Of a stretch of 36,239 bases of DNA, positions 3,452 to 36,239 are shown piece by piece (position 1 is the first letter of the stretch; each line of letters begins with the position of its first letter). A program made the translations under genes and the position numbers. The DNA is taken from NCBI GenBank assembly GCA_024421085.1, contig JAHQYN010000023.1:1-36239 (forward strand), given 5' to 3'. The notes beneath the pieces were generated by a model. That model was not told where the DNA came from and did no database searches. It worked only from the letters and a program-made list of their open reading frames with translations. Source of the DNA: Acidimicrobiia bacterium. GTDB taxonomy: Bacteria > Actinomycetota > Acidimicrobiia > Acidimicrobiales > Aldehydirespiratoraceae.

Positions 3452-3700
3452 TCAATCCCTGGTGAGGTAGGTGCGGAAGACTGGGCGCAGCGGCATCGCG
3501 TGGATGACCAGGTCCTGTTCCGCTGTCTGGAGGTACAGCAGTTCGAGCAGGTTGCCCGCACGGTCGGGGCCGATGCACAGGCTCTTGGTCGGATCATGGT
3601 CGCTGTCGATGTCATAGAAGCCCAAGGCGTGTTGCCACGCATGCGAGATGTCGTCGTCGGTCAACCCGTGCCGGTAGGCCGACTCGAATATCTGCACCAC
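3452..3700 (-). CDS. Small toxin-like protein upstream of an RHH antitoxin
   Basis: The protein has 82 aa, or 81 if the second of two tandem GTG codons is used. It reads MVQIFESAYRHGLTDDDISHAW, then ALGFYDID, IGPDRAGNLLELLYL and HAMPLRP. This resembles small BrnT/RelE-like actinobacterial proteins with a short beta-sheet core (LCIGPDRAGNLLELLY) ending in a basic His/Arg patch. No catalytic residue can be assigned with certainty. Two bases separate it from the RHH gene, and both share one promoter with an operator across the start codon. A TACGCT box exactly six bases before the second GTG favours that codon (3697) as a leaderless start. The toxin role is inferred from context. Confidence 0.6.
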   Translation of the reverse strand: MVQIFESAYRHGLTDDDISHAWQHALGFYDIDSDHDPTKSLCIGPDRAGNLLELLYLQTAEQDLVIHAMPLRPVFRTYLTRD

Positions 3701-4891: not shown

Positions 4892-5983
4892 ATGACCACG
4901 ACCTACACCCCAGCTGAGGTGTTCCCGCCGGGCGAGTACCTCCGCGATGAACTCGACGAGCGCGGCTGGACTGTCACCGAGTTCGCGGGAATCATCGACC
5001 GCCCGCTTCAGGCAGTGTCGGAGATTCTGAATGGAAAGAAGGCGATCACTGCCGAGACCGCCTGCTCTTTTTCTGAAGCTCTCGGCACCACTCCGGAGCT
5101 GTGGCTCAACCTTCAGAGCGCCTATCGTCTTCACCGATTGCGCGAAAAGACCACTCGGGATCATCCGAGCCCGACGGCTCGGCGAGCGCGACTCCGCGAA
5201 GTAGTTCCGCTTGCGGAGGTGAGGTCTCGGGGTTGGATACCGCGAACCGACGATCTCGATCTCATCGAAGCATCAGTGCGCGAACTGCTCGAGATTGAGA
5301 CTCTCGGCGATCCTCCGAAGTTTGTTTTGGCGGCGAGGCGTTCGAATTCCACCGACCCGATCAGCATTGAGCAGTCGGCGTGGCTCGGCCATGTGCGGCG
5401 AGTTGCTGAGACTCAGACCGTCGCCGAGTATGACGTGAACGCGCTAGGGGCGCTCGCGCAGCGCCTTCCCAGGCTGCTCGTAGACGGCCCGGGAGAACTC
5501 CCGGGACTGCCGACTCGGTTCAGTGATTGCGGTGTCTGTCTAGTGTTCGCCCAAGGTCTTCGAGGAGGCAAACTGGATGGCGCTGTGACTCTTCTGCCCG
5601 ACGGCTGCCCGGTCATTGGGCTGACCACGCGGGGAGACCGTTTCGACAGCCTCCTATTCACTCTGCTCCATGAGTGTGCCCATTTGACACTCGGTCATAT
5701 TGATTCACGCACTCCCACAATTCTTGACGACGATCTGAGAGAGCCTCGGGACGACCCGGACGAGGTGGCAGCCGACGAACAAGCCTCAACGTGGCTCTTC
5801 CCGAGCGGGTTCCAGATCAAATCGGCATCGGTACCAGCGATGCTTGAAGCTTCGTTGGAATTTGGGGTGCATCCAAGTGTGGTCGTTGGTCGCGTTCAGT
5901 ACGAGACCCAGAATTGGAGTCGCTACCGCAACCATATTCCAAAGGTCCGTTCCGAACTTCGAGACGCAGGACTGCTCTCATGA
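4892..5983 (+). CDS. higA: HigA antitoxin fused to an ImmA/IrrE-type metalloprotease domain
   Basis: The 363-aa protein is far longer than a plain HigA (~100 aa). Residues ~10-75 form the HigA/XRE helix-turn-helix (FPPGEYLRDELDERGW, then ILNGKKAITAETA and LGTTPELWLNLQ). After a helical linker (~80-200), a C-terminal ImmA/IrrE domain carries HECAH (260-264, the HExxH zinc motif) and a downstream EVAADEQASTWLFP segment (~291-304) that supplies the third ligand in this family. It should repress the operon and restrain HigB; the protease half may process a regulator or itself. AAGGAG lies about ten bases before the ATG. The stop overlaps the next gene's start (ATGA). Confidence 0.9.
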   Translation: MTTTYTPAEVFPPGEYLRDELDERGWTVTEFAGIIDRPLQAVSEILNGKKAITAETACSFSEALGTTPELWLNLQSAYRLHRLREKTTRDHPSPTARRARLREVVPLAEVRSRGWIPRTDDLDLIEASVRELLEIETLGDPPKFVLAARRSNSTDPISIEQSAWLGHVRRVAETQTVAEYDVNALGALAQRLPRLLVDGPGELPGLPTRFSDCGVCLVFAQGLRGGKLDGAVTLLPDGCPVIGLTTRGDRFDSLLFTLLHECAHLTLGHIDSRTPTILDDDLREPRDDPDEVAADEQASTWLFPSGFQIKSASVPAMLEASLEFGVHPSVVVGRVQYETQNWSRYRNHIPKVRSELRDAGLLS

Positions 5984-6468
5984 GCGCATTCACCGAGTGG
6001 GGTCTCCATGACCGGTCGGCTACTTTCTCTTTCTATCTGACGGCCCATCACTGCACTAGTCGACCACAGGACGCTCGGGCCGCTGCGAGCCTGGCCGACA
6101 AGCTCACGATCGCTGGTCCCAAAGGGCCAACCGCCGCCCATCGGTTGCGCGCCTCTGGATTCGACTCTCCGGTCATGTTCGACGGGACCGGTTACGAGCG
6201 CCAAGAATTGCCCCCACCTGATGTTTGGGTAGACCGGCAGCGACGTGTTGAAGCGGCTTGGCCTCTCCTCCCGGGTGTTTTCTTGCCTTGGGACAAAGAC
6301 TGTAGTGAAGCGTTCGTGGGTGCGGTTCAGGAACAGAGCCGCATCGCGGTGGACTTGGACGCCATGATGCTATTGGCGATTGACGCGAGGTGGATCGGAA
6401 AGCAGACTGACGTCGTTGTGGATACTCTGCGCTCGGCAGACCAAGCTTTAGTGGCTCTTCGCGTTTGA
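5980..6468 (+). CDS. Unknown protein, third gene of the higBA operon
   Basis: The product has 162 aa from the ATG that overlaps the higA stop (ATGA), implying coupled translation. I do not recognise the family with confidence. Visible segments are WGLHDRSATFSFYLTAHHC, AGPKGPTAAHRLRASGFDSPVMFDGTGY, a Trp/Arg-rich stretch (VWVDRQRRVEAAWPLLPGVFLPW) and a hydrophobic helix ending DARWIGKQTDVVVDTLRSAD. The alternating strand/helix pattern is reminiscent of half of a TIM-barrel-like domain, so it could be a shortened member of a larger family. It has no signal peptide or membrane segment. A strong hairpin begins 12 bases after its stop, so it closes the operon. The function could be a third toxin-antitoxin component or a substrate of the ImmA-like protease. 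Confidence 0.7.
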   Translation: MSAFTEWGLHDRSATFSFYLTAHHCTSRPQDARAAASLADKLTIAGPKGPTAAHRLRASGFDSPVMFDGTGYERQELPPPDVWVDRQRRVEAAWPLLPGVFLPWDKDCSEAFVGAVQEQSRIAVDLDAMMLLAIDARWIGKQTDVVVDTLRSADQALVALRV

Positions 6469-6479
6469 GGTCGGGGTGA

Positions 6480-6510
6480 GTGGGGTGAGGGTCCGCGACC
6501 CTCACCCCAC
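6480..6510. terminator. Strong hairpin, probable bidirectional terminator
   Basis: A perfect 14-bp stem (GTGGGGTGAGGGTC paired with GACCCTCACCCCAC) encloses a three-base loop. It lies between the rightward higBA operon and the leftward iron ABC operon, which ends at 6657. There is no U-tract on either side, which is common for actinobacterial terminators. Confidence 0.75.
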
Positions 6511-6656
6511 TGGCCTTCGTGGCGGAGGTGGACGGGAAGAACCCAAACAAGAAACCGACAACGGGTCAATGCGCCGCGCGGCGAATTTCGCGTGACCGTG
6601 ACCTCCAACAGCGAGCCGGTCAGGGGGCGGGGGTCCTTGAGTCCCACTGCCAGGCT

Positions 6657-8282
6657 TCAGTGGGCGTCGAGTCGGCGGAGTACGACTGCCCAGGTGAGGA
6701 CCGAGCTGACCGCTACCAGGGCGAGCGAGGCGACCGCCCCCTGAGCGAGGGCCCCCCGTTCGCCGGCAGCCCACACCTCAGTCGCGAGCGTGTCGAAACC
6801 GATGGGTGCGAGCAGCAGCGTGGCCGGCAGTTCCTTCATGGTCGAGAGCATCACCAGGCCGGCTCCGGCAAAAAGGCCCGGCGCCATCAACGGCAGCTCA
6901 ACGGTGAAGAGGCGACGCGACCGGTTCGCTCCCAGAGTCGCTGCGGCGTCGCTCATGCTCTCCGCAACCGTCTCCACCGCGACATGGGCGGCCCGACTCG
7001 CCTGGGCGCCGAAGTGCAGGACATAGGCGACGATCAGCAACGGAAGCGTCTGGTACCAGCGTCCGATGAGCGGGGCGTCAATCGCCCAGAACACCAGCGA
7101 CAGGGCGATCACCACCCCTGGAAGCGCGAAGCCCGCCACCACCATGGAATTGGCTGCACCCGCGATCCGGCTCCGATAACGCCCCGTCAGCCAGGCAATC
7201 GGCAGCACCACCGCAATGGCTGCCACCGCGGTGATCAGACCCACCTCGGCAGTGTGCAGCGCCGGGCCCCAAAGACCTCCGACATCGACTCCCAGACCGA
7301 CCGAGTCGATGTCGGTGGTGAGGCCGCGCCAAGCCCAGAACCCGAGCACCGCGACGGGACCGATCAGCGCATTGCTCAGAAATGCGCCAACCACAACCAG
7401 CACCGGGATGCCCCAACCCTTGAGGGGAACGATCAGCGGTTCATGGCTGCGCTTTACCTCCACCTGGGCACGTCGCCGCTCGAGCGCGCGTTCGCCCGTC
7501 ACGACGCACAACGCCGTTGCCCCCAGGATCAGGGCGAGCCCCATCGACCGGGCCTGGTCGAACAGTTGGTCGGCATAGATCTGTTCGGCAAGGGTGCTGT
7601 AGCCGAGCAGCGAGACAGCGCCGAAATCGCTGATCGTGTAGAGGAAGACGAGCATCGTCCCGGCCAACACCGCACTCCAGACCTGCGGCAGCACGACGGT
7701 CACAAAGACGGTCGGCGGCTTGCGGCCGAGCAGACGGGCCGACTCTTCGAGCGACGGTGGAAGCGAAGCCAGCCGGGCCGCCACCGGGAGGTACACGTAG
7801 GGATAGGTGAACAGGGTCAGCACCAGCCAGGCACCGCGGAACCCCTTCATGTCGGGCAGGTCGCTGATGCCCAGCGGCGAGACGAGATCCTCGACCAGAC
7901 CACCGGTCGCGAACCCGGCGATCAGCGCAGTCGCCCCGACGAAGCTCGGGAACACCAGCGGAATCGGGGCGAGGATGCGCCAGACGCCGCGGCCCCGGAT
8001 GTCGGTGCGGATCGTCAACCAGGCCAGGCCCGTGCCGATCACCGCCGCCGCTACCGATACCGCGAACCCGAGCAGCAGGGAGCGGCGCAGCGGATCCCAG
8101 GTCGACTGCGACAACAACAGCGAACCGAGGTCGGTTCCCAGGTCGAGGTTGCGGCTCACGACGTAGGCGAACGGCCCCATGAAGACCACGCCGATCAACA
8201 CCGAGAGGGCCAGCATCGCTGCGGGCGGTCGACGCTTCGATGCTGTCAACCGCCCCGGGTCGGCGATGCCGGAGCCGCGCAT
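6657..8282 (-). CDS. fbpB: Ferric-iron ABC transporter permease (FbpB-like, two fused permease halves)
   Basis: The 541-aa integral membrane protein consists of two BPD_transp_1 halves. Each has an EAA-type loop that contacts the ATPase: ESARLLGRKPPTVFVTVVLP (~190-210) and AAATLGANRSRRLFTVELPL (~440-460). About twelve hydrophobic segments are visible, starting at residue ~23. The duplicated permease in one chain is typical of the FbpB/FutB/AfuB iron family and of ThiP. The upstream binding protein's paired tyrosines favour iron. Its ATG lies one base after the stop of the binding-protein gene, so the two are translated together. Confidence 0.88.
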   Translation of the reverse strand: MRGSGIADPGRLTASKRRPPAAMLALSVLIGVVFMGPFAYVVSRNLDLGTDLGSLLLSQSTWDPLRRSLLLGFAVSVAAAVIGTGLAWLTIRTDIRGRGVWRILAPIPLVFPSFVGATALIAGFATGGLVEDLVSPLGISDLPDMKGFRGAWLVLTLFTYPYVYLPVAARLASLPPSLEESARLLGRKPPTVFVTVVLPQVWSAVLAGTMLVFLYTISDFGAVSLLGYSTLAEQIYADQLFDQARSMGLALILGATALCVVTGERALERRRAQVEVKRSHEPLIVPLKGWGIPVLVVVGAFLSNALIGPVAVLGFWAWRGLTTDIDSVGLGVDVGGLWGPALHTAEVGLITAVAAIAVVLPIAWLTGRYRSRIAGAANSMVVAGFALPGVVIALSLVFWAIDAPLIGRWYQTLPLLIVAYVLHFGAQASRAAHVAVETVAESMSDAAATLGANRSRRLFTVELPLMAPGLFAGAGLVMLSTMKELPATLLLAPIGFDTLATEVWAAGERGALAQGAVASLALVAVSSVLTWAVVLRRLDAH

Positions 8283-33984: not shown

Positions 33985-34018
33985 GGCTTTGCAGGATACT
34001 CGCCTCGTTTCACTACCG

Positions 34019-34133
34019 TTCGCGCCGATCCCCGCCAGCTGTTCGCGCCGATCCCCGCCGGCCGTTCGCGCCGATCCCCGCCGGCGGTCCGCGCCGATCC
34101 CCGCCGGCCGTTCGCGCCGATTCCCGCCGATAT
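34019..34133. repeat. Five tandem 23-bp repeats between divergent genes
   Basis: Units of TTCGCGCCGATCCCCGCCGG plus three more bases start at 34019, 34042, 34065, 34088 and 34111. The first, fourth and last are slightly diverged. The period is not a multiple of three and the array fills most of the gap between gtrA (minus) and the thioesterase (plus), so it is non-coding. Confidence 0.93.
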
Positions 34134-35023: not shown

Positions 35024-35218
35024 GTATCCAGCGCGGGTAGCGGTTCCTGGTGGGCTCAGTTTGACATTCCGGGTAGGGGTTGTTGGGGGAGGGTTTTGTA
35101 GTTGCCTCCACATCCTACCCCTGCCCAAAGTTGGCCTCGCCAAGCGGCTCCGCATCAAAAGACGCGGGTGGCTTCGTTGGCTAGTCTGTGTTCGGAAACA
35201 GCTTGAGGAAGGTCGGCG

Positions 35219-36239
35219 ATGGCCAATACCCATCAACATGACGAGATTCGCGAAGCGTCGAGACGCAGCCTCTTGGCGGCTTTCGCTCTGACTGCGCTGC
35301 TGATGGTGGCTGAGATCGTCGGGAGCTTCGTCGCAGGCAGCCTGTCGCTGCTTGCCCACGCGGGCCACATGCTCACCCATGTGGCGAGTTTCGGGCTGGC
35401 CCTGTTCGCGATCCGCTTGGCGAAGCGTCCGGCGTCGGCCAATCGGACCTACGGCTACAACCGGGTCGAGATCCTGGCTGCCGCAGCCAACGCTCTGTTG
35501 ATGTGGCTCGTGGCGGCGTACATCGTGTGGGAGGTGATCGACGGCTTGGCCCTCGGTGGTCCCGACGGACACGGCGCCCATGGTCATGTCGGCCACGACC
35601 ACCACGAGTTGGAGGGCGGCACCATTTCTGTGCTGGGCGGTCTGGGAATCGTCGTGCAACTTCTAATCGTCTACGTGCTCAGCCGCTCCTCCAAACGCAG
35701 CCTCAACGTCGAGGGGGCGATGCGCCACGCAGCCGTTGACGTGCTCGCGTCATTGGCTCTGGTCGTCTCCGGGGTTCTGGTGCTGCTCTTCGGTGAATCG
35801 GAGTGGGTCGAGAGGGTCGATCCGGTTTTGAGCCTGATCCTCGTGGTCCTCATACTGGGCAGTTCGTGGCAGCTGGTCTCGTCGGTCGTGCTGGTGCTGA
35901 TCGAGGGCACCCCCGAGCACCTCGACCTGTACCGGTTGTGCCATGACATGGAGGAGTTGCCGGGTGTGACCCTCGTGCACGACATCCACGTGTGGACCGT
36001 GACTTCGGGCTACATCTCGCTCACCGCCCATGTGCTTGTCGACCCCGACTACCAAGGGGACCACAACAAATTGCTGCGAGCGCTGCGACGCATTGCCCGT
36101 GAACTCCACGGGATTAACCACTCCACGATCCAACTGGAGACATCGGTCGAGGACTGCGACGAGGATCACCATGTTGACCACCTGCTGCAACGTGAGAAGA
36201 TCCGTCGCAACCGCCGATGGATTCGCACCAGAATCTCAA
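35219..36239 (+). CDS. Cation diffusion facilitator metal exporter (3' end outside window)
   Basis: The frame is open from ATG 35219 to the window edge (340 codons, no stop), so it is missing from the plus-strand ORF track. It shows six membrane segments and a CzcD/ZitB-like sequence. TM2 reads LLAHAGHMLTHVASF, followed by RTYGYNRVEILAAAANALLM. The loop after TM4 is His-rich (HGAHGHVGHDHHE), TM5 carries HAAVD, and the cytosolic domain has VHDIHVWTVTSGYISLTAHV. The family exports Zn2+ or related ions for protons. TM5 keeps the HxxxD site, but the TM2 partner is H50xxxH54 where HxxxD is usual, and H47 replaces the Asp of LADAGH. GAGGAAGG is about seven bases upstream. Confidence 0.9.
   Translation, partial: MANTHQHDEIREASRRSLLAAFALTALLMVAEIVGSFVAGSLSLLAHAGHMLTHVASFGLALFAIRLAKRPASANRTYGYNRVEILAAAANALLMWLVAAYIVWEVIDGLALGGPDGHGAHGHVGHDHHELEGGTISVLGGLGIVVQLLIVYVLSRSSKRSLNVEGAMRHAAVDVLASLALVVSGVLVLLFGESEWVERVDPVLSLILVVLILGSSWQLVSSVVLVLIEGTPEHLDLYRLCHDMEELPGVTLVHDIHVWTVTSGYISLTAHVLVDPDYQGDHNKLLRALRRIARELHGINHSTIQLETSVEDCDEDHHVDHLLQREKIRRNRRWIRTRIS

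Follow-up and report, generated by a model that had tools for sequence, protein, structure and literature searches.

A CDF transporter with a changed TM2 motif and a probably remodelled metal path in a small acidimicrobial lineage

The last gene of the window (the whole stretch of DNA analysed here, 36,239 nucleotides) encodes a CDF transporter that is probably a working zinc-exporting antiporter of the CzcD/ZitB type, with a metal path that has been remodelled in a small acidimicrobial lineage. Four elements of this reading are inferred, namely transport itself, zinc as the metal, protons as the counter-ion and the effect on selectivity. Single mutations of A-site residues mostly inactivate CDFs, and the evolution of metal choice and proton coupling is therefore hard to trace. 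Here, three such positions have changed in a lineage whose close relatives keep the old residues in the same zur/znu slot, which provides a ready-made residue-swap pair. An independent HH-HD clade shows the A-site half of this change to be viable and to have evolved at least two times, and the window CDF is a natural variant of a well-known pump that lends itself to testing.

Results

The window CDF carries changed residues in TM2 and TM4

The reading frame of the gene (35219-36238, + strand), which contains SLSLLAHAGHMLTHVASF, is open at the contig end. Its product matched Pfam Cation_efflux (6.6e-39) and ZT_dimer (2.8e-10), both above the cut-offs, which places it in the CDF (SLC30) family by domain content, and the NCBIfam CDF superfamily model TIGR01297 scored 225.6 bits (cut-off 82.35; E 7.2e-67). 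Contig C75 (L035) overlaps the last 127 bases of the window and supplies the final Ser codon and the stop, giving a full protein of 341 amino acids. This protein keeps the TM6 Asp (D201), the TM1 Glu (E32) and the C-terminal dimer domain, and its best solved relative is human ZnT8 (PDB 6xpe, E=1.8e-28). The features are as follows.

35100..36239, + strand: duplicated segment, 97% identical to C22:5571-6711 (genome comparison)
35203..35212, + strand: probable ribosome-binding stretch (TTGAGGAAGG region), just 5' of the ATG (sequence, inference)
35219..36239, + strand: CDF transporter gene, 5' 340 codons (Pfam Cation_efflux and ZT_dimer, NCBIfam CDF superfamily)
35351..35380, + strand: TM2 motif LAHAGHMLTH, canonical LADAGHMLTD (sequence and alignment)
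35357..35359, + strand: H47 (CAC), exit-pocket position; ZitB D50, ZnT8 D103 (alignment)
35378..35380, + strand: H54 (CAT), A-site ligand position; Asp in the CzcD/ZitB type, ZitB D57, YiiP D49 (alignment)
35540..35623, + strand: codons 108-135, TM3-TM4 loop with His-rich insert, GPDGHGAHGHVGHDHHELEG (alignment; sidedness from known CDF topology)
35657..35659, + strand: Q147 (CAA), TM4; Asn in relatives (ZitB N135), Lys in L161 and L162 (alignment)
35726..35740, + strand: conserved TM5 HxxxD (H170, D174), reading HAAVD (alignment)

A preliminary description of this DNA had reported LAHAGHMLTH, with the His codons CAC and CAT in place of both Asp codons, and the same residues were found in a second copy of the gene on contig C22 and in two other genomes, confirming that reading. 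Alignment also bore out that the metal-binding Asp of TM2 (ZitB D57, YiiP D49) has become His and that the TM5 HxxxD is kept; the TM5 codons are CAC for H170 (35726) and GAC for D174 (35738), and H50 is likewise CAC (35366). The description had further spoken of an all-His TM2 side. Both Asp have indeed been replaced by His; however, only the second is an A-site ligand, while the first belongs to the exit pocket. Beyond that description, we found a third changed essential site (Q147), an extracytosolic His-rich loop and a duplication of the gene.

The three changed positions H47, H54 and Q147 align with D50, D57 and N135 of ZitB, where the alanine mutants D50A, D57A and N135A each abolish function (PMC1868760, table 1) and D50E is partly active (PMC1868760). 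Position 47 was Asp in every compared CDF outside a group of four proteins, and position 147, which is Gln in the window CDF, was Asn in 99% of about 130 compared CDFs. The TM2 changes lie along the route that leads outwards from the A site. By the known CDF topology the TM3-TM4 loop is extracytosolic, and its His-rich insert was present in all four sequences of the HAGHML group and absent from the DAGHMLTD relatives.

A perfect 8-base inverted repeat, GCCACATG-CTCACC-CATGTGGC, surrounds the H54 codon (35365-35386). We considered a hairpin-templated mutation at this repeat as the origin of the CAT codon and dropped it, since the hairpin is missing from L161 and L162, which nevertheless carry this His.

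The changed residues define a small acidimicrobial clade

HxxxH had been raised as a possible clade feature, and the homologue alignment demonstrated that it is one, shared by four proteins from three species (the HAGHML group). Two of these members, L161 (genome G418) and L162 (G424), came from the family search; they are 71-72% identical to the window CDF over the alignment and read HAGHMLMH, with both His in common. The family search covered all 51 available genomes of the family, and the order and class searches sampled 395-397 genomes. Homologues with Asp, named in the preliminary description as evidence against the observation, were the more distant ones; the closest homologues and the second copy have His. 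In particular, Asp was found at 47 and 54 in the DAGHMLTD relatives of the same genus and family (55-61% identity) and in all relatives from the order and class searches, and the nearest outgroups (50-61% identity) have Asp, Asp and Asn at 47, 54 and 147.

A maximum-likelihood tree grouped the four HAGHML sequences into one clade (100/99), which is nested within an acidimicrobial clade of 18 rows (100/100). The other members of the latter have Asp at both places, and ZitB falls on the same side of the tree; by this nesting the window CDF descends from DAGHMLTD CDFs. So far, H47 appears confined to the HAGHML group. A peptide-pattern scan of genome contigs with the window CDF found no relative, and a plasmid search gave at most 38% identity among the matches listed.

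Relatives of the window CDF occupy a zinc locus

Beside L161 and L162 lie genes for a Fur-family regulator, for ZnuA and for an ABC-3 permease (znuB); their order matches that around the DAGHMLTD exporter in G022, G027, G422 and G425. Judging from its znuA/znuB neighbours, the regulator is probably a zinc sensor (Zur). Identity across the two kinds of locus is about 85-88% for the permease, but only about 61-67% for the regulator and about 56-59% for the CDF, which points to faster change, or an exchange, of the regulator-CDF pair inside a standing zinc locus. The His/Cys residues of the regulator are conserved across both kinds of locus. In the host genome of the window (G000), contig C199 carries the regulator gene and znuA but no CDF gene, and the window CDF is not at the zur/znu locus. 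A PF01545 search of G000 returned no second CzcD-type gene, only a FieF/YiiP-like one, and in G418 and G424 the PF01545 matches other than the HAGHML CDF were weaker.

Two further observations concern these loci. At L169 (3983-4819), L168 (5998-6834) and L183 (6261-7136), the regulator frame continues into His/Cys-rich repeats (AHVHTDTCYDHPEHTHADHADHC...) before the CDF, and this extension of the DAGHMLTD loci is absent at the L161/L162 loci. In addition, znuA is split over two frames in G418 (L180 2429-2944 and 2887-3693), through either a frameshift or an assembly error, and occupies one frame in G424 (498 aa).

The setting bears on whether the remodelled site moved the substrate off zinc, for example to His-favouring Co2+, Ni2+ or Cu ions. 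Such a move would fit the joint change of three polar core positions and an external loop in a single lineage, and the external His-rich loop could serve several of these metals. Nevertheless, L161 and L162 kept the zur/znu neighbourhood, their regulators have the same His/Cys residues as those beside DAGHMLTD exporters, and the DmeF Co/Ni equivalog of NCBIfam scored the window CDF at 83 bits, far under its cut-off of 250. On this evidence we regard a change of substrate as unlikely.

HxxxH in TM2 has arisen at least twice

We scanned the pattern [D/H]-A-[G/A]-H-M-[L/F]-T-H, as one codon pattern, over 84,980 species genomes. At least 118 stretches were recovered, at least 112 of them in CDFs with DAGHM[LF]TH (DAAHMFTH in one case), and the idea that TM2 HxxxH is unique to the window CDF was rejected. 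These HxxxH CDFs (L040-L157) span at least 30 named phyla of bacteria and archaea; the hosts include Planctomycetota (Brocadiales), Omnitrophota, Asgard archaea, Nitrospirota and others, and the clade is larger than 112. Every alignable HH-HD sequence (101/101) has D47, H50, H54, H170 and D174, and the A-site quartet H-H-H-D is also that of the window CDF (H50, H54, H170, D174). Placement of the window CDF within the DAGHM[LF]TH clade was rejected by the tree and the AU test, in which joining all HxxxH sequences cost 56 log-likelihood units (p-AU 0.000228). Because the HH-HD clade is thus separate from the HAGHML clade, HxxxH arose at least twice.

A 2017 survey names the CDF clades HD-HD, ND-DD, DD-DD, DD-HD, EN-HD, HH-DH and HD-(E/H)D, and HH-HD does not occur in the part of its clade list available to us (PMC5703985). 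A literature phrase search found no CDF described by the term HH-HD. We tentatively put forward, as one joint proposal, that the A-site type HH-HD is recurrent and includes a very widespread clade that the published clade list does not name, and that the changes in the window CDF (D to H at 47 and 54, N to Q/K at 147, and the external His loop) are a natural, selected redesign that alters metal preference or the coupling to ions.

The window CDF might also be a transport-dead relative, kept for metal sensing, zinc buffering or heterodimer formation as has been suggested for some eukaryotic ZnT proteins. In favour of this, alanine mutants of ZitB show that none of the three changed positions is dispensable there, and ZnT6 and ZnT9 are the human members without the exit-pocket residues (PMC8023586). 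We consider this quite unlikely: the TM5 ligands, the TM6 Asp and the TM1 Glu are intact, the A-site change is present in at least 112 other CDFs, and no canonical CzcD-type partner was visible in the PF01545 search of G000.

A model for the remodelled metal path

In a working zinc exporter, the A site that takes up cytosolic Zn2+ would consist of three His (H50, H54, H170) and one Asp (D174) in place of two and two. The metal would next cross an exit pocket formed by E32 and H47, rather than by Glu and Asp, and move on towards the external His-rich loop, with protons travelling the opposite way on histidines. With more His, Zn2+ should be preferred to Cd2+, and both binding and release should depend more strongly on pH. 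A bias for zinc over cadmium is the simplest prediction, because YiiP D45H, with a His added to its site, still transports zinc and no longer cadmium (work cited in PMC8754126); by this analogy the window CDF would probably prefer zinc over cadmium. Since the position-by-position results for ZitB argue that single changes are harmful, the three changed core positions probably compensate one another. The shift in metal choice or proton coupling suggested in the preliminary description is a candidate property of the window CDF.

Altered energetics, that is, another counter-ion or stoichiometry or net metal entry, would be a further outcome of the same changes. In the membrane core, two carboxylates have given way to two His (plus a Lys in L161 and L162), which changes the charge there, and the A-site make-up has been argued to reflect the incoming ion too (PMC5703985). 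The external loop with its His may just as well serve for release, and we give altered energetics little probability.

The gene is duplicated and under purifying selection

The C22 copy lies in the same genome and encodes a protein 98.5% identical to the window CDF, with both His. The two copies differ at 28 nucleotides (22 synonymous and 6 nonsynonymous; dN/dS 0.09), none of them in codons 47, 50, 54, 170 or 174, with one synonymous change at residue 171. Because dN/dS is 0.09 between the two copies and about 0.10 between L161 and L162, purifying selection acts on the HAGHML CDFs. Exactly 127 bases are common to contigs C48, C22 and C75, a length that resembles an assembly word, and the shared 127-base end of the duplicated segment explains the contig break, which the repeat appears to have caused. 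The two copies belong either to one cell or to two strains of one metagenomic bin. An error of sequencing or assembly, or a decaying gene, is scarcely credible in spite of the position at a contig end and in a repeat, as the same residues occur in two distinct copies and two other genomes and dN/dS is about 0.1; sequencing error as the source of both His was rejected, the C22 copy, L161 and L162 all carrying them.

One CDF copy of G000 follows an acyl-CoA thioesterase gene and the other follows Fic and Schlafen-like sequence. On C22 (L034), a 71-base repeat (3557-3627) and the CDF (5571-6711) are separated by this Fic and Schlafen-like sequence; in the window, the 71-base repeat (35031-35101) abuts the CDF segment (35100-36239). 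Contig C62 (L158 1531-1627) has the same upstream 97 bases, with a transposase-like ORF in place of the CDF. Short tandem GC-rich repeats (gttcgcgccgatccccgccgg...) lie at window positions 34000-34125, directly 5' of the thioesterase gene. Downstream of the CDF on C75 are genes for an N6 DNA methylase weakly similar to BREX PglX (L035 799-3396) and an MBL-fold protein with ComEC/Avs1a similarity (L035 3398-4231), possibly a defence island.

Discussion

Several findings were counted in favour of a working zinc exporter: undamaged genes in four sequences from three species that retain the TM5 site, TM6 Asp, TM1 Glu and dimer domain, purifying selection, the zur/znu slot of L161 and L162, the combination of HxxxH with HxxxD in at least 112 other CDFs, the zinc transport of YiiP D45H, and the lack of a second CzcD-type gene in the PF01545 search of G000. 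Counted against it were the change of all three ZitB-essential positions, the absence of His at 47 from all compared CDFs outside the group, the 99% conservation of Asn at 147, and the position of the G000 gene away from the zur/znu locus. We also counted against it that A-site residues and metal showed only limited correlation in the survey (PMC5703985).

E. coli ZitB (b0752; 35% identity) resembles the window CDF in the six TM segments, dimerisation domain, TM5 HxxxD, TM6 Asp and TM1 Glu, but has D50, D57 and N135 in place of H47, H54 and Q147 and is without the His-rich TM3-TM4 insert. The ZitB equivalog model scored 176.5 against a cut-off of 408, and in TM2 the window CDF has HxxxH where the HD-HD A site of the CzcD/ZitB type has HxxxD. 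The acidimicrobial DAGHMLTD CDFs (L005, L006, L007, L163, L164) are 56-58% identical to it over the alignment and belong to the same 18-row clade, and four of the five occupy the same genomic slot as L161/L162; they differ in having Asp at 47 and 54, Asn at 147, and a His-rich N-terminal tail, not a His loop between TM3 and TM4. The HH-HD CDFs (L040-L157) share the A-site H, H, H, D, but keep D47 and form a separate clade, and the TM4 Asn was 99% conserved over all sequences compared. CDF clade 12 (HH-DH) of Barber-Zucker et al. 2017 also has HxxxH in TM2, but its TM5 reads DxxxH, unlike the H170xxxD174 of the window CDF, which places the latter outside that clade (PMC5703985). Finally, human ZnT8 belongs to the same fold family; the equivalents of its H106, H220 and D224 are kept in the window CDF, whereas those of its D110 and D103 are His.
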